DNA from: Odoribacter laneus YIT 12061
GTDB taxonomy: Bacteria; Bacteroidota; Bacteroidia; Bacteroidales; Marinifilaceae
Length of the DNA: 64,000 nucleotides
Direction of reading: 5' to 3'
NCBI RefSeq assembly: GCF_000243215.1
Contig: NZ_JH594596.1
Location: 927,297-991,296 of the forward strand
A model generated the notes under the pieces. That model made no database searches, was not told the origin of the DNA, and saw nothing but the letters and a program-made list of their open reading frames with translations. Shown in pieces: positions 1-62,100 of the stretch. Made by a program: the position numbers and the translations under genes. The first letter of the stretch is position 1; the number at the start of each line of letters is the position of its first letter.

Positions 1-267
1 TGCCGTACGCATCGGGTAGGTGAAAAACAGCCGAATGAGTTGGGCTTATACGATATGAATGGTAATGTATGGGAATGGTGTGAAGACTGGTACGGAAATT
101 ATAGTAGTGTTTCTCAGAGAGACCCGTCAGGAGCTACTAGTGGTTCTTTCCGGATGCTCCGGGGCGGTAGCTGGAGCGACGGAGCCAGGAGCTGTCGCGG
201 GTCGTATCGTAGCTACAACACGCCTGGCGACCGTTACTACGACCTCGGCTTCCGGTTAGTATGTTAG
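1..267 (+). CDS. C-terminal part of an FGE-sulfatase (C-type-lectin-fold) domain protein, 5' end outside the window
   Basis: The reading frame is open from base 1 and ends with TAG at 265-267. The 88 visible residues carry the classic end of the formylglycine-generating-enzyme/SUMF1 family: NELGLYDMNGNVWEWC, then RGGSW, then GFRLV just before the stop. This family adopts a C-type-lectin-like fold and is used both as an enzyme and as a ligand-binding display module. The visible part does not show whether this member is catalytic. Codon use changes sharply inside the fragment: before about base 148 pyrimidine-ending codons mostly end in T, afterwards mostly in C (see the variable-region entry). 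The gene lies directly upstream of three PEGA paralogs whose own C-termini are also display domains, so it may be a fourth member of that series. The N-terminus is not visible, so this is inference. Confidence 0.88.
   Translation, partial: CRTHRVGEKQPNELGLYDMNGNVWEWCEDWYGNYSSVSQRDPSGATSGSFRMLRGGSWSDGARSCRGSYRSYNTPGDRYYDLGFRLVC
148..264 (+). other. Putative variable region (VR) of a diversity-generating retroelement
   Basis: In the last 39 codons of the FGE-type gene, positions that are asparagine (AAC) in templates of retroelement-diversified FGE-fold proteins read AGC, GAC, TAC, GGC or AAC here. Examples are AGC GAC at 175-180, AGC TAC AAC at 211-219, GGC GAC at 226-231 and TAC TAC GAC at 235-243, ending GGC TTC CGG. 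This is the pattern left by adenine-directed mutagenesis of an AAC-rich template. From 157 on I count 18 C-ending against 7 T-ending pyrimidine codons, the reverse of the preceding part (5 against 11). No template repeat, accessory avd gene or reverse transcriptase is present in the window, so they would have to lie upstream or elsewhere. The alternative is an ordinary FGE-like C-terminus with chance codon bias. Confidence 0.5.
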
Positions 268-704
268 TTCCCAACCTTCCGGTCTTAAATCGAGCTAAAA
301 AAGAGGGAAGAAGTCGTACGGAGGGTCTCTCGGAAAGGGCGGTTGCCGCCGCCCAAAAGGGAGATCGGACGGGAGACGGTGGGTGGTACAGGCCAAAAAG
401 GAGATTTAAATGGATCTGCCTTCGTAATCGGTACACTGCTGACGGGCAACCTTTTGGGGCTGATGGCCGGAACTCTGTTCCCGAGAAAAATTTGACAAGG
501 AAAAACAATAGTAGATTTTATCCGAACACAAGATTCGTTCATGAATACTGTAAGAGTATCAGTCCTTTTTGAGTAAATGAAAAAGAAAGTTTAAAAAAGG
601 TAGGAATTCTAAAAAGAGAATATAATTTTGAAGTATAAAATGTTCGGAAGGCCAGAGAGATTCGATAGGCGGACGGATTTTTTAATGAAGATAAATTTTT
701 TCCG
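268..704. other. Intergenic region with a GC-rich stop-free stretch, a hairpin and a promoter-like box
   Basis: The first half (289-495) is distinctly GC-richer than the AT-rich second half. It contains a perfect 6-bp GC hairpin, GGGCGG at 337-342 pairing with CCGCCC at 349-354. Frame 1 is open from 289 to a TGA at 493-495 and would encode a hydrophobic segment (about 415-480), but it has no ATG upstream of that segment. A strong Shine-Dalgarno-like AAGGAG (399-404) precedes an ATG at 410 in another frame that stops after five codons. This could be a decayed small gene or a structured RNA; I do not recognise it. No copy of the preceding variable region is found here. A TAATTTTG box at 623-630 is a likely -7 element for the PEGA gene at 705. 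Confidence 0.5.
623..630 (+). promoter_or_regulatory. Possible -7 box (TAATTTTG) for the first PEGA gene
   Basis: TAATTTTG matches the Bacteroidota -7 consensus TAnnTTTG. It would give a 5' leader of roughly 65-70 bases before the ATG at 705. No clear TTTG -33 box is found at the expected distance, so the assignment is tentative. Confidence 0.35.
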
Positions 705-2756
705 ATGAAAAGTGTTTTAGGAATAGTGTTATTATTTTTCGTTTCTTTGGCGGAGGCCCAGCAGATTTCAGTACAATCGTTCCGGAAACTGGAGAACGAT
801 CTTTCGGCCCGAGGGAGTGAGGGGCGTACGGACCAAAATGGAGACCGGTGTGCGATTATTAAAGTGGTGACGCCGGGAACGGACTTTGTGTTTGAACCGG
901 ATGCTTTGGGAACGATGGGGACGGTGCAGAAAACAGGGGAGATCTGGTTGTATGTACCTTATGGGGCGAAACACTTGACAATTAAACACTTGGATCTGGG
1001 TATATTGCGGAATTATGCTTATCCGGAACGAATAGAAAAGGCTTGTGTATACGAAATGATATTGACGACGGGGCGGGTGAAGACGGTTGTGGAAGAAGAT
1101 GTCGGCGGACAGTGGTTGGTGATTATGGCCGAACCTCAGGAAGCAATGGTGTATATTGACGAAATCTACGAAGCCGGGGAGGCCGGACGGGTACAGAAAT
1201 TTTTACCCTTAGGACGGCATACGTACCGGGTGGATTGTGCCTTATATCATCCGGAGGCGGGACAGGTGGAACTTTCTGCCGAGAATAAACAGGAGTTATC
1301 TGTTCGCTTGCGCCCCGCATTCGGCTATGTGGAAATAAATTCGGAACCCGAAGCGGGAGCCCGGGTATGGATAGACGGGGAAGAGGTGGGACGAACCCCT
1401 TACCGGAGTGAGCGCTTAAAGAGTGGGGAGCATTCTGTAGAAGTGGTAAAAGCGATGTATGCGCCAATTCGTCAGACGATAAAGGTCACGGACGGAGAGA
1501 CGCTTCCACTGCGGCTGAACCTGTCGGCTAATTACGGATTACTGACCGTTACGACCGACCGGGAAGCTGAAATCTGGATCAATGATGAAAAGAAAGAACA
1601 AGGAAGATGGAACGGTCGGTTGACTGCAGGCATGTATGTGGTGGAAGCTCGTCGTCCTTCCCACCGTGTCGTTCGTCAGTCTATAGAAATAAAAGCCGGA
1701 GAAAACCGTGAGTTAACTATCGGTTCGCCTGAACCGATTTACGGAACATTAAATATCAACAGCAATCCGGGAGGAGCCGATATTCTTTTAAACGGAGAAA
1801 GTTGCGGAACGACCCCTCAGATTGTTCGGCAGGTATTGATCGGAGAGAATAGAGTGGAATTAATCAAACCGGGATATGAGAAAATAACCCGCTTTTGTAC
1901 GGTGGAGGAAGGGAAAGTGTCGGCACTTGACCTGACGTTATCACCGGAGAGTGCGAAAGTTTGGAACGAGGCAGACATCGACTTTTCGGGCGTTCCTTCC
2001 TACACTTCCAGAACAAATCCCCTTATCCTGGGACAACAGGCTTATGTCTTGTTTGTCCAGCGGGAGTGTTCTCCCAGCTATACGGCCTCTGTCTTTGCTA
2101 AAGACGAAGCTCAAAGTCGTGTTTCCGGAAGGACGATAAACAAATATTACCACTTTAAAGCCCATAAAGAAACGGTTTCTGTAAGGGGATTTTACAAATA
2201 TGATTTTCCTTCGAAAAAGTGGATTGCCTGTGCCCTTCCTCCTTATGCAGCCCGTACGGTAGAAGTGTCAGAAAATATAAAATTTCCGTTGGGCGAAAGT
2301 CGGGTAGATTGGGGATTAGCAGCTATGGGGAATGCTATTTTTACTTTAGGACAGGATTATATTTATCAGTCGGGGCTGGATAAATGGGCTCCTGTTCCGG
2401 TTGTATGGAGGTGGACTACAAAGTATTGGTTTCAGCATAAGATTGTTTTCTCTTCCTCGGAAAAGAATGGGTATTCGGTATCCGTATATGATCCGGAGGA
2501 AAATCGTTCGGAATTAGTGCTGACGATTCCCGCCAAGAAAGGGTATTTTGCTCATTTTGCCGTGGAGGAGGGAAAAATGTATTTTGTGGTCGGACCGGCG
2601 AACAAAAAGAAGATAAATACGGTTCAGGTATATTTTATTCATGTCGGAAAGAAAAAGGCGGAACAAATAAAGGGCGTGGACGATGCATTTTACAAAAAGT
2701 TAATGGAGTCATCGGCAGACCCATATAAAATAGAATTAAAAACAAGTAATTTATAA
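705..2756 (+). CDS. Secreted PEGA-repeat protein with a propeller-like C-terminal region (paralog 1)
   Basis: This is a 683-residue protein with a signal peptide (about residues 1-19, ending AEAQ). A conserved N-terminal domain (20-135) is shared with the next two genes. About four PEGA or PEGA-like repeats follow (roughly 136-204, 205-272, 277-343 and 346-415), with typical cores such as ARVWIDGEEVGRTPY. PEGA domains are short beta-sandwich modules common in bacterial cell-surface proteins. Residues 420-683 are aromatic-rich with kelch-like motifs (YKYDFPSKKW and similar), which suggests a beta-propeller, though no family is certain. The gene is 11 bases upstream of its paralog at 2768 and begins the operon running to 9112. 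Bases 743-813 are almost identical to 2806-2876 in that paralog, pointing to recent duplication or gene conversion. The ligand or function is unknown. Confidence 0.8.
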   Translation: MKSVLGIVLLFFVSLAEAQQISVQSFRKLENDLSARGSEGRTDQNGDRCAIIKVVTPGTDFVFEPDALGTMGTVQKTGEIWLYVPYGAKHLTIKHLDLGILRNYAYPERIEKACVYEMILTTGRVKTVVEEDVGGQWLVIMAEPQEAMVYIDEIYEAGEAGRVQKFLPLGRHTYRVDCALYHPEAGQVELSAENKQELSVRLRPAFGYVEINSEPEAGARVWIDGEEVGRTPYRSERLKSGEHSVEVVKAMYAPIRQTIKVTDGETLPLRLNLSANYGLLTVTTDREAEIWINDEKKEQGRWNGRLTAGMYVVEARRPSHRVVRQSIEIKAGENRELTIGSPEPIYGTLNINSNPGGADILLNGESCGTTPQIVRQVLIGENRVELIKPGYEKITRFCTVEEGKVSALDLTLSPESAKVWNEADIDFSGVPSYTSRTNPLILGQQAYVLFVQRECSPSYTASVFAKDEAQSRVSGRTINKYYHFKAHKETVSVRGFYKYDFPSKKWIACALPPYAARTVEVSENIKFPLGESRVDWGLAAMGNAIFTLGQDYIYQSGLDKWAPVPVVWRWTTKYWFQHKIVFSSSEKNGYSVSVYDPEENRSELVLTIPAKKGYFAHFAVEEGKMYFVVGPANKKKINTVQVYFIHVGKKKAEQIKGVDDAFYKKLMESSADPYKIELKTSNL

Positions 2757-2767
2757 AGTTAGCTTGC

Positions 2768-5707
2768 ATGAAATTTATATTATTTATGGTATTGGTTATG
2801 GGTATTTCTTTGGCGGAAGCCCAGCAGATTTCAGTACAATCGTTCCGCAAACTGGAGAACGATCTCTCGGCCCGTACGGAGAAGCGTGTAGATCAGAACG
2901 GGGATATATGTGCTATCGTCAAGGTAGTTGCACCGGAACAGGGATTTTACTTTGACGGGGACGGGAACGGGATTGTTGCGGTGGAACGGAAAATCGGGGA
3001 GTATTGGGTGTATGTTCCTTATGGCTCCCGCTATCTTACCGTAAAACACGACAAACTGGGAGTGCTCCGGGCTTATGCTTATAAGGAGCGGATAGACAAG
3101 GCTTGTGTATACGAAATGGTATTGACAACGGGTAAGGTGATCACGACGGTGGAGAATGCCCTGACGGAACAGTGGCTGGTGATTCGGGTGGAACCTAAGG
3201 AAGCCATGGTTTATATAGACGATGTGTATGAGGCGGCTACGGAAGGGGTGGTACAGAAATACATGAAGTTCGGGCAGTATTCATACCGGATTACGGCTCC
3301 TTTGTACCGGACGGAAGCCGGTACGGTGGAAGTAAAAGCCGATCAAAAGGCGGAGTTGGATATACGGTTGAAGCCTGCTTTCGGATACCTGACTCTTACT
3401 TCACAGCCGGAAACCGGGGCAAGGGTATGGGTGGATGAGGAAGAAGTCGGACTCACTCCTTATAAAAGCGGACGTTTGAAAGAAGGAAAACACCGGATAA
3501 GGGTGGCCAAAAACTTTTTTCATCCGGTAGAACAGGAAGTGAATCTGACGGCCGGATCCACGGAAGATTTATCTCTGACCATGCCGTCGGCTTATGGCTT
3601 TCTAGCGGTCACTTCGCAGCCGGAAACCGGTGCGGACGTGTATATCGACGGAGTAAAGGTGGGACAGACTCCCTATAAGAGCGAGCGTTTAAAGAGCGGA
3701 GAATACCGGGTACAAGTGGTGTGTTCGATGTATCAGCCGGTGGAGCAACTGGTGACCGTATCTGATAATCAGACAGCTACCGTAGACGCCGGACTTTCGG
3801 CTAATTTTGCTTCGGTTACCGTGACGACGGATCCGGAAGCGGAATTGTGGATCAACAATGAGCAGAAGGGAAAGGGAAAATGGAGCGGTCGGTTGAGTGC
3901 TGGGGTATGCGTTGTGGAAGCCCGCAGACCTTCCCACCGGACAGTTCGGAAATCATTGGAATTACAAGCGGGAGATACCAAGGCGATTGTGCTGGAAGCT
4001 CCTCAGCCGATTTATGGAGCTTTGAATGTCAGTTCTGTGCCCGCAGGAGCGGAGATTCGCATAGACGGGAAAAAATGGGGGAATACTCCTTTGGTACTTC
4101 CGAAAGTGTTGATTGGGGAGTGCCGGCTGGAAATTTTGAAAGAGGGATATAATTCCTATGTCCGGAATCTCCGGATTACCGAAGGAAAGCTCGAAGAAGT
4201 AAAAGCGGAACTGGAAGTTTTCCGCTTTACAGCTGCGGAATTGAATGCCAAGGGAGACTCTGCAGCCCTGCTAGGCCAATACGAAGAGGCTGCCGGTTTT
4301 TACAAGCAGGCTTGTGAGCGGGGAGACGGAAGAGGATATTACAATATGGCCGTTTTATACAAAGACGGAAGGGGAGTGGAAAAAAATTCGATACAGGCTG
4401 TGCTGTTTTTTAAGCGGGCTATGGAAGCCGGGGACGAGAAAGCTTTACAGGCGAATGGAAAATTGTTTCAAAAAGGAAAATGGAGAAAGAGGGCAGCTCC
4501 TCCTTTTTCTGTCCGCTATGGGGGAATTAGTTTTGCCTTCGGACAAAAAATATATGTAGGAGGCCGGTATGGCACTGATTTTTGGGAATACGATACGGAA
4601 CAGGACAAATGGTCGAAAAAAGGAAAACTGCCTCAGGAAATTTATGCTCCGGTATTTTTTGTTATCGGCGATAGAGGATATATGGGAGCGGCTTCCGGTT
4701 ATAAGGGATCCCGGAAATTTTGGGAGTATAATCCGCAGACGGATAGCTGGATGGCAAAACGGGATTTTAAAGGGAATATCAGTTATAACACTTACGGATT
4801 CGCTTACCAAGGGAAAGGATATGTGGGAGAGCGGAAAAAAAACAAGTGGTGGGAATATGATCCGCGAACGGATCAATGGACGGAAAAGGGAGCTGATCCG
4901 GGAGGATATCATGGATTTTCGAATGCAGAGAAGGCCTATATTCTGGCAAATAAAAACCTCTATGAGCTGGATCCGGTAACGATGCAGAAAACGGCTGTAC
5001 CGGATTATCCGGGTGCAACGCTTCATTTTGTCGGATGTGCCACTACCCAGTATTTGTATTTTTCCGGGCATATAACCGGGAAAAACAGATCCTTCTATGG
5101 CTTTGACATAAACCATAAACAATGGCAAATCTTGCCGGAAGCAGATTTTAAAGATTTCCAATGCATTTGTACCGGGCTAGGCGATAAATTGTACGTTTTT
5201 GAAGGGGAATCTACCTGGGAATACGACCCCTCGGAAATCCTGCTTCTTGAAAATAGTGGGGGAAACTCTTCGAAAACCTCCATCGATCGCAGTCAGGGAA
5301 ATACGCCTCCTACGACTACGACGGAAACTAAAACATATAAGATAGGGGATTTATATGAGCGGGGAGGTTTAAAAGGTATGGTCTATCGGGTAGAAAAGGG
5401 GGGACAACACGGCTGGGCCATTTCTTTCCATCAATTAGCTGATATTTCCTGGAACGAAGCAAAAAGCTGGTGTGAAGGAAAAGGCTGGCGTTTGCCAACT
5501 CTGGAAGAAATCAAATTTTTATATTCCATAAAAAAGGCGATTAATACTTTGTTTTCCTATCTTGAAGGTACGCCTTTAGACAAGATATATTGGACTTCTA
5601 CAGCTTATGGGGGAGGACTGATGTATACCTGTAGTTTTCAAACGGGTATATGTAATAATGGAAGTAAAGACAATAAACGGGCTGTTTTTGCAGTTTATAA
5701 ATTTTAA
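2768..5707 (+). CDS. Secreted PEGA, Sel1/TPR, kelch and DUF1566-type multidomain protein (paralog 2)
   Basis: This 979-residue protein starts with a signal peptide (MKFILFMVLVMGISLAEAQ) and the conserved N-terminal domain of the array. About five PEGA-type repeats span roughly 136-487 (for example ADVYIDGVKVGQTPYKSERL). A short Sel1/TPR region (about 486-565) follows, with a repeat reading YYNMAVLYKDGRGVEKN. Then come kelch-type beta-propeller blades (about 571-820: WEYDTEQDKW, WEYNPQTDSW, WWEYDPRTDQW), a Thr/Ser-rich linker (about 835-850) and a C-terminal DUF1566-like domain (about 857-978) with SWNEAKSWCEGKGWRLPTLE. DUF1566 resembles the C-type lectin fold. The architecture suggests an envelope scaffold that presents a C-terminal recognition module; no enzymatic residues are recognised. 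It lies 11 bases after paralog 1 and ends 10 bases before paralog 3. Confidence 0.85.
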   Translation: MKFILFMVLVMGISLAEAQQISVQSFRKLENDLSARTEKRVDQNGDICAIVKVVAPEQGFYFDGDGNGIVAVERKIGEYWVYVPYGSRYLTVKHDKLGVLRAYAYKERIDKACVYEMVLTTGKVITTVENALTEQWLVIRVEPKEAMVYIDDVYEAATEGVVQKYMKFGQYSYRITAPLYRTEAGTVEVKADQKAELDIRLKPAFGYLTLTSQPETGARVWVDEEEVGLTPYKSGRLKEGKHRIRVAKNFFHPVEQEVNLTAGSTEDLSLTMPSAYGFLAVTSQPETGADVYIDGVKVGQTPYKSERLKSGEYRVQVVCSMYQPVEQLVTVSDNQTATVDAGLSANFASVTVTTDPEAELWINNEQKGKGKWSGRLSAGVCVVEARRPSHRTVRKSLELQAGDTKAIVLEAPQPIYGALNVSSVPAGAEIRIDGKKWGNTPLVLPKVLIGECRLEILKEGYNSYVRNLRITEGKLEEVKAELEVFRFTAAELNAKGDSAALLGQYEEAAGFYKQACERGDGRGYYNMAVLYKDGRGVEKNSIQAVLFFKRAMEAGDEKALQANGKLFQKGKWRKRAAPPFSVRYGGISFAFGQKIYVGGRYGTDFWEYDTEQDKWSKKGKLPQEIYAPVFFVIGDRGYMGAASGYKGSRKFWEYNPQTDSWMAKRDFKGNISYNTYGFAYQGKGYVGERKKNKWWEYDPRTDQWTEKGADPGGYHGFSNAEKAYILANKNLYELDPVTMQKTAVPDYPGATLHFVGCATTQYLYFSGHITGKNRSFYGFDINHKQWQILPEADFKDFQCICTGLGDKLYVFEGESTWEYDPSEILLLENSGGNSSKTSIDRSQGNTPPTTTTETKTYKIGDLYERGGLKGMVYRVEKGGQHGWAISFHQLADISWNEAKSWCEGKGWRLPTLEEIKFLYSIKKAINTLFSYLEGTPLDKIYWTSTAYGGGLMYTCSFQTGICNNGSKDNKRAVFAVYKF

Positions 5708-5717
5708 AAGCGAAACG

Positions 5718-7898
5718 ATGAAATTACTCTTGTTGCTTTTGTTCTTTTTCACTTTAGGAGGGGTACAGGCCCAACAAATTTCGGTTCAATCTTTCCGGAA
5801 ATTGGAAACCGATTTATCGGCTCGGGGAAGTGAGGGACGTACGGACCAGAATGGGGATCGTTGTGCGATTATCAAGATCGTGACGACAGAGACCGGATTT
5901 GATTTTGATCCGGATGCTTTGGGCAGTATGGGCAGTATACAAAAGAAAGGGGAAGTCTGGTTGTATGTGCCCTATGGGGCCAGGCGACTGACGATCCGGC
6001 ATGCCCGTTTGGGGATTTTGCGTGATTATCTTTATCCGGAACGGATTGAAAAGGCTTGTGTGTACGAAATGGTGCTGACAACGGGAACAATAGAAACAAT
6101 TGTACACGAAATTGTACAAAAACAATATTTGGTTGTCACAACAGAACCGGAAGAGTCATTAGTATATGTAGATAACGAATATGTAGGAAGCGGACAGGAA
6201 ATGGTACATAAATTATTGTCTTTGGGAAAACATACCTATCGGGTGGAAGCTCCGATGTATCACACGGAAGCGGGAACGGTAGAATTGACGGCGGAAAAGA
6301 AGTCAGAACTTCGTGTCGCATTGCGTCCGGCTTTTGGATTTATTAAAATTGTTACGGAACCGGAAAACGGAGCTCAGGTGATCGTGGATGAAGAGTTGAC
6401 AGCTTTGATAACCCCTTGCGTAACGGAAAAAGTGAAAAGCGGTACTCACCGGATTAAAGTGATAAAATCCATGTATCAGCCTGTTGTCCGGGAGGTGACT
6501 GTGGAAGACGGGAAAACCAGCCTGGTGCATATCGATTTGCAACCCAATTTTGCCGAGCTGACGTTAATAGGAGAAGGGGGAGCTTCTTTGTGGGTCAATG
6601 GAGAGGAGAAAGGGACGGGAAGCTGGAAAGGAAGAGTGAATGCCGGGTTGTGCAGTATCGAGCAACGCATGCCTTCCTGTCGGACTCAACGGAAAGATAT
6701 CGAAGTAAAAGCCGGAGAGGAGCTGACCTTGAAATTGGAACCGCTGGTCCGGATATATGGTATTCTGGATGTCAGCAGTGAGCCGGCGGGGGCTACTATT
6801 TATGTGGACGAGGAGGTTTTCGGGACTACCCCCAATTTGATTCAGAAAATGGGAGTAGGAGAGCATAAGATCCGGCTAGCCCTTGAAGGGTATAAGGACG
6901 AGGAAAAAACAGTGATGATACAGGAAGGAAAAATCTGTGCCCTGAACATGGTTTTGGAAAAAGGGCTTTCTCCGGAGACGGTGATGATTCAGGGAGAGGC
7001 TTTTTATCAGGCTGGTAATTATTCGGAGGCTTATATTTGTTTCCGGAAAGCTGCAGAAGCCGGAAATATTATTGCCCAGAATTGGGTCGGAATATTGTTG
7101 GAAACGGGGAAAGGCGTCAGGGAAAGTAAAGTACAGGCGGCTAATTGGTATCGGCGGGCGGCTTTGCAAGGGAATGCGGATGCTCAATATCATTTAGGGC
7201 GTCTGTATGAAAACGGAGAAGGGGTGGAAAGAGACCCGGCTCAGGCAGATTCCTGGTATGAGAAAGCGGCTGCTCAGGGGCAGGAAAAGGCTGCGGCTGC
7301 TTTAAAGCGAAGGAGGGGAGAGAGGGATACTTTCGTTTGTGGTGCTGTTTTTGTGGATCCCCGCGATGGACAACAGTATCCGACGATACAAATCGGGAAC
7401 CAATGCTGGATGGCTAAAAATATGAATGTCGGGGAATGGGTAAAAATTCGGGATGTACAGACCCATCGGAAAGCAGGTATACAGAAGTTTGCATACGGGG
7501 ATCAGCAGGCGAACAATGAGGTTTATGGCGGATTGTACACCTGGTGGGAAGCGATGTTCGGAGAGAGCACAAGCGGCATTAAATATGTAGAAGGCAGTTG
7601 GACGGAAATTCAGGGTATTTGCCCGGATGGATGGCATATACCCAGTGAAGCGGAATGGAACATGTTAGCGGGAAATTCACTCGGGCAACTGATACAAGGG
7701 ATGCTTGCCGGAGGTTACCGTTCCCCGGAAGGAAGTTTTTTAAAGGCCAGTGCATACGGGTATTGGTGGTTGTCTACTTCTGTGAATAGTAATGAAGCTT
7801 ATGGATTGGAACTGGAGTCTAACAGGAAAAAATATAAATTGAGTAAAAAAAGTGGAGAAAAAGAAAGGGGATTTAGTGTGCGTTGCATTCGTAATTAA
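5718..7898 (+). CDS. Secreted PEGA, Sel1 and FISUMP-type protein (paralog 3)
   Basis: The ATG at 5718 is chosen because it opens a proper signal peptide (MKLLLLLLFFFTLGGVQAQ); the in-frame ATG at 5658 lies inside the preceding gene. The 726-residue product has the shared N-terminal domain, about four PEGA-type repeats (roughly 135-415) and Sel1-like repeats at about 415-530 (NADAQYHLGRLYENGEGVER). The C-terminus (about 539-726) matches the Fibrobacter succinogenes major paralogous domain: DPRDGQQYPTIQIGNQCWMA, GLYTWWEAM, GICPDGWHIPSEAEW, and a closing RGFSVRCIRN. That domain is also C-type-lectin-like and is found in surface proteins. The gene is therefore a third display variant on the same scaffold. 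It ends 17 bases before the lytic transglycosylase gene, with which it is probably co-transcribed. Confidence 0.86.
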   Translation: MKLLLLLLFFFTLGGVQAQQISVQSFRKLETDLSARGSEGRTDQNGDRCAIIKIVTTETGFDFDPDALGSMGSIQKKGEVWLYVPYGARRLTIRHARLGILRDYLYPERIEKACVYEMVLTTGTIETIVHEIVQKQYLVVTTEPEESLVYVDNEYVGSGQEMVHKLLSLGKHTYRVEAPMYHTEAGTVELTAEKKSELRVALRPAFGFIKIVTEPENGAQVIVDEELTALITPCVTEKVKSGTHRIKVIKSMYQPVVREVTVEDGKTSLVHIDLQPNFAELTLIGEGGASLWVNGEEKGTGSWKGRVNAGLCSIEQRMPSCRTQRKDIEVKAGEELTLKLEPLVRIYGILDVSSEPAGATIYVDEEVFGTTPNLIQKMGVGEHKIRLALEGYKDEEKTVMIQEGKICALNMVLEKGLSPETVMIQGEAFYQAGNYSEAYICFRKAAEAGNIIAQNWVGILLETGKGVRESKVQAANWYRRAALQGNADAQYHLGRLYENGEGVERDPAQADSWYEKAAAQGQEKAAAALKRRRGERDTFVCGAVFVDPRDGQQYPTIQIGNQCWMAKNMNVGEWVKIRDVQTHRKAGIQKFAYGDQQANNEVYGGLYTWWEAMFGESTSGIKYVEGSWTEIQGICPDGWHIPSEAEWNMLAGNSLGQLIQGMLAGGYRSPEGSFLKASAYGYWWLSTSVNSNEAYGLELESNRKKYKLSKKSGEKERGFSVRCIRN

Positions 7899-28976: not shown

Positions 28977-28980
28977 ATTT

Positions 28981-29019
28981 AAAATTACACATTAGGGACG
29001 TGCCCTAATGTGTAATTTT
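28981..29019. repeat. Palindromic repeat, copy A (perfect 17-bp stem)
   Basis: The stem 28981-28997 (containing TTACACATTAGGG) pairs perfectly with 29003-29019 (CCCTAATGTGTAA) around the loop ACGTG. Three more copies lie at 61069-61106, 61991-62025 and 62063-62100. It immediately follows the orphan terminator. Confidence 0.85.
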
Positions 29020-60971: not shown

Positions 60972-61068
60972 AAACCGAACTTGCCTCTCCTTTCCGATTA
61001 TCGTCGTTGGGTGAGTTACTTGTTCGCTTTAGAATGCTGCCTCTGTCAATATCGTTTATCTTATGCTG

Positions 61069-61106
61069 GAATTACACATTAGGGACGTGCCCTTTTGTGT
61101 AATTTT
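61069..61106. repeat. Palindromic repeat, copy B (diverged arm)
   Basis: Left arm AATTACACATTAGGG and centre ACGTG match copy A; the right arm reads CCCTTTTGTGTAATT, differing from the perfect arm CCCTAATGTGTAATT by two bases at 61094-61095. The change creates a TTTG used by the next promoter. Confidence 0.8.
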
Positions 61107-61828: not shown

Positions 61829-61990
61829 AGATTATTAGGCGGTTTGCCTGTTATTTTTAATTTGTGTTTAAACTCTATTATAGAATATGAGGGGAAAAAG
61901 TAGCTATGGAATTAAAAAAGAAAATCAGGTTTATGTTGTATGATTCGGTTCCTTATGAACTTTATTTGAATATTCGGGGAAAAGGGAAAA

Positions 61991-62025
61991 AATTACACAC
62001 TAGGGCACGTCCCTAATGTGTAAAA
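61991..62025. repeat. Palindromic repeat, copy C
   Basis: TTACACACTAGGG and CCCTAATGTGTAA flank the centre CACGT; one base pair becomes G-U. The centre is in the opposite orientation to copies A and B. Confidence 0.8.
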
Positions 62026-62062
62026 GTTGTATATTTACAGATAATGGGAATGCCTGGTGAAT

Positions 62063-62100
62063 AAATTACACATTAGGGCACGTCCCTAGTGTGTAAAAAG
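62063..62100. repeat. Palindromic repeat, copy D, adjoining the M28 peptidase ribosome-binding site
   Basis: TTACACATTAGGG and CCCTAGTGTGTAA flank CACGT. The repeat ends 10 bases before the ATG at 62111 and runs into AAAGGGAGG, the likely ribosome-binding site, so a hairpin here would border the translation start. Confidence 0.8.

Follow-up and report, generated by a model that had tools for sequence, protein, structure and literature searches.

The stretch of DNA analysed here (the window, 64,000 nucleotides of Odoribacter laneus YIT 12061, C1:927297-991296, from a genome of 3.77 Mb in 9 contigs with completeness given as 100%) opens inside the 3' end of an FGE-domain gene, and the question that this locus raises is whether the last bases of that gene are the variable region (VR) of a diversity-generating retroelement (DGR) and, if so, what became of the template and the reverse transcriptase (RT) that would have written it. 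The features concerned, all on the + strand, are these:

1..267, +, 3' end of a PEGA-FGE target gene (Pfam FGE-sulfatase on window 1-264)
148..243, +, DGR variable region strongly supported by its sequence pattern, its variable codons running from 2 to 33 in the alignment (adenine-linked variation, better-conserved flanks)
244..267, +, constant 3' end CTCGGCTTCCGG...TAG, nearly identical in the genome's own copies; the template of the relative G047 also reads CTCGGCTTCCG
268..344, +, conserved non-coding stretch past the stop codon, common to the closest copies (copy alignment)
705..2756, +, PEGA protein with the same N-terminal domain and no FGE end (Pfam, alignment)
2768..5707, +, PEGA and Kelch protein with the same N-terminal domain and a weak Lcl_C-like end below the cut-off (Pfam, alignment)
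5718..7898, +, PEGA, Sel1 and Fib_succ_major protein with the same N-terminal domain (Pfam, alignment)

The FGE-sulfatase domain (PF03781, E 7.6e-23 in Pfam, a similarity at the level of the domain) occupies the gene end at window 1-267, the reading frame of which terminates GFRLVC-stop, in agreement with the GFRLV end described in the sequence-only reading of this DNA. The gene begins at about C1:925390, left of the window, and its remainder is split by a 360-base run of N that stops where window base 1 begins. Its 5' part (L020:5391-6935) contains three PEGA stretches (Pfam, E 6.7e-46) and its N-terminus looks signal-like, giving the order signal-like N-terminus, family N-terminal domain, PEGA repeats and FGE domain. 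The best-scoring solved relative of the window fragment is TvpA, a variable protein of a Treponema DGR (2y3c, E 8.4e-19).

The family found at window 705-7898 and C1:914.8-927.6 kb combines a common N-terminal domain and PEGA with C-terminal modules that differ: FGE, Kelch or Fib_succ_major, and in some genes no recognised module. When genome contigs were scanned with the N-terminal domain, 16 loci were recovered (44-55% identity), the named relatives being Bacteroidales or Bacteroidetes assemblies, and a BLAST comparison of phage records with window 1-700 yielded two matches, both to Microcystis phage and confined to bases 7-87. The repeated PEGA/FGE genes of C1:884-935 kb are interrupted by assembly gaps, 100 to 1106 N long. 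A 40-nt palindromic repeat of the type AATTACACATTAGGGACGTGCCCTAATGTGTAATT is dispersed in the window (28978-29017, 61065-61104, 61986-62025 and 62059-62098).

The codon composition of the gene end changes within the reading frame. AGC, GAC, TAC, GGC and AAC account for 14 of the 39 codons of 148-264, and the third bases, 20 T to 6 C in window 1-147, are 7 T to 20 C in 148-264 (Fisher p 3e-4); by this shift the switch from T-ending to C-ending codons is real, and the earlier description of an FGE-domain gene ending in such codons is borne out.

A protein search of the same genome identified seven FGE ends (C1:889.8, 892.0, 916.7, 919.4, 922.6, 924.8 and 927.3 kb), named here by kilobase as g889, g892, g916, g919, g922, g924 and g927, the last being the copy in the window. 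Six of the seven belong to genes that start with the family N-terminal domain; g889, which is separated by an N gap from the kinase-like ORF that precedes it, is not counted as a PEGA gene. Near g889 there are three Pfam-positive protein kinase genes, two of them with MORN repeats (L018 10-11168), and the kinase-like ORF just before it, a fourth, is cut by a gap. A VR-type segment is carried by five of the ends (g927, g922, g924, g889 and g892), in each case at the C-terminus of the FGE-sulfatase domain, whose C-type-lectin/FGE fold is assigned here from sequence.

Since no template was found in this genome, adenine positions were defined by the templates of two relatives of the same family, G047 and G023. 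Against the G047 template, the three closest copies (g927, g922 and g924) vary at 26 of 32 adenine positions and at 10 of 88 others (p 8e-13); against the G023 template, the same three vary at 27 of 32 and 9 of 88, respectively (p 2e-14). With g889 added, the counts on the G047 template become 29/32 and 17/88, and with g892 as well they become 30/32 and 24/88. Within the 14 codons of the G047 template that start with AA, the three closest copies are variable at 23 of the 28 first and second positions but at only 2 of 14 third positions (p 4e-5), rising to 26/28 and 5/14 when g889 is included and to 27/28 and 8/14 when g892 is included too. As a control, in the 120 bases that precede the VR, g927 and g924 differ at 6 first, 6 second and 4 third codon positions, versus 11, 11 and 2, respectively, in the VR.

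The variation is bounded on both sides. Among the six pairs of four copies, identity is 69-75% over 148-243, 79-93% over the 87 bases before it, and 92-98% over 244-344, where 91-99 of 99-101 bases are identical in all six pairs. The constant stretch at 244..267 is where a homing (IMH-like) anchor would lie, a putative role; no homing hairpin is proposed, the DNA fold of window 241-390 being not unusual (z 0.51).

How independently the copies were randomised was judged from their agreement at adenine positions. In none of the ten copy pairs does this agreement exceed that of shuffles significantly (p 0.10-0.67), but it lies above the shuffle mean in nine of the ten (120 matches versus 99.7 expected); randomisation was therefore largely, not provably wholly, independent, and some shared descent or conversion among the copies is compatible with the data. 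The copies g924 and g889 have GCG-CTT in common at codons 26-27. Departures of the single copies from their majority at 87 non-adenine positions number 2 (g927), 2 (g922), 5 (g924), 10 (g889) and 14 (g892). The remaining two ends, g916 and g919, differ from each other at 18 of 32 adenine positions, 31 of 88 other positions (p 0.03) and 23 of 40 third codon positions, and were not counted as VRs of this type, the pattern not being clear.

The template inferred from the genome's own copies was searched for in 56 genomes of the family (E 1e-6) and 393 of the order (E 1e-10, at most two candidates being scored per order genome), and 24 places were found outside the genome itself (2 in the family, 22 in the order). 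Of these, 22 retain 24 or more of the 28 or 29 aligned adenines, 23 have an RT encoded in the surrounding locus (1.6 to 3.1 kb), and 19 have HRDC-type matches. The exceptions are L109, which keeps 14 of 28 adenines and has no RT, and L112, which keeps 19 of 28, shares a contig with L092 and resembles a VR next to the L092 template. Adenine was placed wherever the own copies differ, which biases the search towards templates from the outset, and the adjacent RTs are its independent part; because L065 and L066 were matched by RT queries that were their own, the order-level places are also counted alone, 21 of 22 having an RT. By the same measure, each of the five own copies retains 12 to 17 of 30 adenines, and their loci lack an RT.

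Two of the relatives show how such a template is arranged. G047 carries an HRDC gene, an RT and the template on a 3.5-kb contig, on which no VR was found. G023 has a complete locus, in which a PEGA-FGE gene with a VR is followed by the template, an HRDC gene and an RT; the N-terminal domains of this gene and of the window family match each other (E 2e-23). Template and VR of G023 differ at 18 of 120 positions, all 18 of them among the 32 adenines of the template, and the VR shows no departure at the 88 non-adenine positions. IGxxxSQ marks DGR RTs; the RTs of both G047 and G023 contain IGNLTSQ as well as YMDD. By eye, the stretch after the G023 VR contains the reverse complement of the stretch that follows the template, like an inverted flank (L066 1480-1800).

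Across the 56 family genomes, 11 match a Bacteroides phage DGR RT (E 1e-5), some of them weakly, and 13 match the N-terminal domain. Both are matched in G005, G008, G014 and G023, and G023 alone has an RT and an N-terminal-domain gene within a few kb on one contig. In two genomes of the same genus, neither the DGR RT nor the template nor the N-terminal domain had a match at the thresholds applied. Among the nearest N-terminal-domain relatives are a G031 gene with an FGE-like end and a G053 gene with another end, and the template scan detected no VR of this type at either; a text filter detected no FGE end in the examined stretches of G035, G024 and contigs C65 and C25 of G023. Viral contigs gave no match to two exact template patterns and one degenerate pattern, and 32 viral loci have RTs 26-42% identical to those of G047 and G023.

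In the window, the search found neither an RT nor a template, as had been noted from the sequence: tblastn with four DGR RTs and one HRDC protein (E<=1) produced only a 16-residue HRDC match (E 0.027), with no DGR RT match, and 148-264 takes part in no direct repeat of at least 40 nt. The wider search of the genome for a near-identical repeat and a DGR-type RT, proposed in the sequence-only reading as a check, recovered neither one. BLAST with the VR and with the inferred template (E<=10) returned, for each, the five VR copies and four short chance matches. The sole PF00078 match in the genome is a 459-residue RT at C1:117 kb, which was rejected as a DGR RT: it is assigned to UG17 by PADLOC (E 1.1e-123), stands beside an RT-associated SLATT protein, and is a defence RT. 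This UG17 (DRT-type) locus (L021 2510-4976, C1:115.5-118.0 kb) also includes a 158-aa ORF that matches the start of the PtuA/PDC-M01A models. The Bacteroides phage DGR RT had no match in the genome at E 1e-5, and the G047 RT (E<=10) had no matches other than the UG17 RT and, at C1:2145071, a stretch of 84 RT-like residues, which was dismissed as chance (E 0.068, inside a 4877-residue open frame). No HRDC-type accessory gene was found near an RT; the two matches of the HRDC query fall within longer reading frames, of 755 and 745 aa (C1:1718093 and C1:290312), which were rejected as cassette parts and are probably RecQ-type helicases.

The adenine-linked variation, the conserved flanks, the G023 locus with its PEGA-FGE gene, template, HRDC gene and RT, and the likeness to TvpA strongly support the assignment of window 148-243 as a variable region written by a DGR, and with it the central proposal of the earlier reading, which now draws on the templates of two relatives and a DGR locus within the family. 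Because the sequence pattern and the relatives' templates are positive evidence, the lack of a template, which the earlier reading had named as a refuting result, is read as orphaning and not as refutation; and since neither a template nor a DGR-type RT was found in the genome, 148-243 is probably an orphan DGR VR, one of five copies written from one type of template. Loss of the cassette is the likeliest cause of the orphan status, ahead of a cassette hidden in an assembly gap or one acting in trans. Against the orphan-VR reading stand, besides the excess of adenine-position agreement over the shuffle mean and the unclear pattern of g916 and g919, three observations: the writing step is without a witness in the genome, the template being absent there; non-adenine differences are present (10/88 in three copies, 24/88 in five), unlike in G023 (0/88); and N gaps leave room for missed sequence.

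The last of these bears on the idea that an intact DGR cassette lies in an unresolved gap or an unassembled piece and that a working DGR has the VRs as its ordinary remote targets. Six genes of the two examined clusters do contain N gaps, 100 to 1106 bases long, and g927 and g922, with only 2 of 87 non-adenine departures each, may have been rewritten recently; however, the gap sizes as given fit ordinary genes of 1.9-2.4 kb around them, over 1.5 kb would be required for a template, an HRDC gene and an RT, the RT is no repeat and should assemble, and the stated completeness is 100%. Such a hidden cassette is unlikely. That no DGR was ever involved, and that tandem paralogues diverged through point mutations, gene conversion and diversifying selection acting at the FGE-fold surface, is extremely improbable, given that the variation falls on the adenine positions of templates from other genomes, that third bases stay constant where first and second bases vary, and that a member of the family has a complete DGR on such a gene. 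The clustering of the genes as paralogues, the failure to find any DGR part in the genome, the GCG-CTT common to g924 and g889, the slight excess of adenine-position agreement over the shuffle mean and the ordinary-looking divergence of g916 and g919 are what speak for it.

Alternatively, the FGE genes may be a substrate rewritten in trans by a cassette that resides on a mobile element or in other strains. Five targets with no writer found would suit this, as would the spread of non-adenine departures (2, 2, 5, 10 and 14 of 87), which would fit different times of rewriting, and the patchy distribution of DGR RTs among the family's genomes (matches at E 1e-5 in 11 of 56, some of them weak); yet no carrier was found, the exact and degenerate template patterns being without a match in viral contigs, and rewriting of this kind is very unlikely. 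A related conception, in which the five VRs are a kept array of substrates that a come-and-go cassette rewrites in trans while cells without the cassette hold locked variants, is distinctly unlikely.

Under the preferred reading of an orphan VR, a DGR RT with an HRDC-type accessory protein, present in an ancestor or in strains that have the cassette, would have copied an adenine-rich template, misreading its adenines; the template would encode roughly RGGSWNNNARNCRVSNRNNNTPxNRNNNLGFR. The cDNA would then have taken the place of the corresponding 3' end in five or more paralogous FGE genes, presumably by retrohoming, and each gene would thereby have gained its own set of surface residues. The five copies would most likely have been frozen when the cassette was lost; less likely, they are served by a cassette hidden in a gap or by one that comes and goes. 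The unequal numbers of non-adenine departures fit copies that were last rewritten at different times and have drifted since, and could also come from different templates. By analogy, the PEGA protein may be exported and bind a ligand through a surface made of the varied residues.

Parts of this arrangement have counterparts in known systems. TvpA of Treponema denticola (PDB 2y3c) is similar in sequence to residues 2-88 of the window fragment and likewise has a C-terminal VR, and the adenine-linked variation is like that of TvpA and of the prototype DGR of Bordetella phage BPP-1; in contrast to these DGRs, template and RT were not found in the genome of the window, and the target carries PEGA repeats. 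The G023 DGR shares the N-terminal domain family, PEGA, FGE and a similar template, whereas the complete cassette and the absence of non-adenine VR departures (0/88) are particular to G023. Among the Nanoarchaeota, partial DGRs with adenine-directed VRs at sites that lack an RT, as do the targets here, are read in the available part of PMC4372165 as fossils or remote targets; there, according to the same part, RT-bearing DGRs occur in the same genomes and the targets have no sequence relatives, whereas here no DGR RT was found and the targets are of the FGE type. The accessible portion of PMC7517822 reports dispersed C-lectin VR paralogues, often kinases, in cyanobacterial genomes that also have DGR loci. 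Several paralogous VR proteins per genome are common to both cases, and g889 too follows a kinase-like ORF, but most of the targets here are PEGA-FGE genes and no DGR locus was found.

A global survey finds annotated VR regions to be systematically C-lectin folds (PMC8144416, in the part available), and PMC7159879, as far as its available text goes, ties FGE-type domains to DGRs and mentions PEGA separately. A literature search on DGRs and PEGA did not find PEGA proteins described as DGR targets (available text of PMC7159879), which is no proof of novelty. DGR targets without an RT are thus already known, and what is unusual here is the presence of five differently written targets with no writer found. 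Such a set is a naturally preserved trace of a diversification system that came to a halt or moved elsewhere, in which the non-adenine departures may rank how long ago each copy was last rewritten, and it ties the PEGA proteins of Bacteroidales to DGR diversification.
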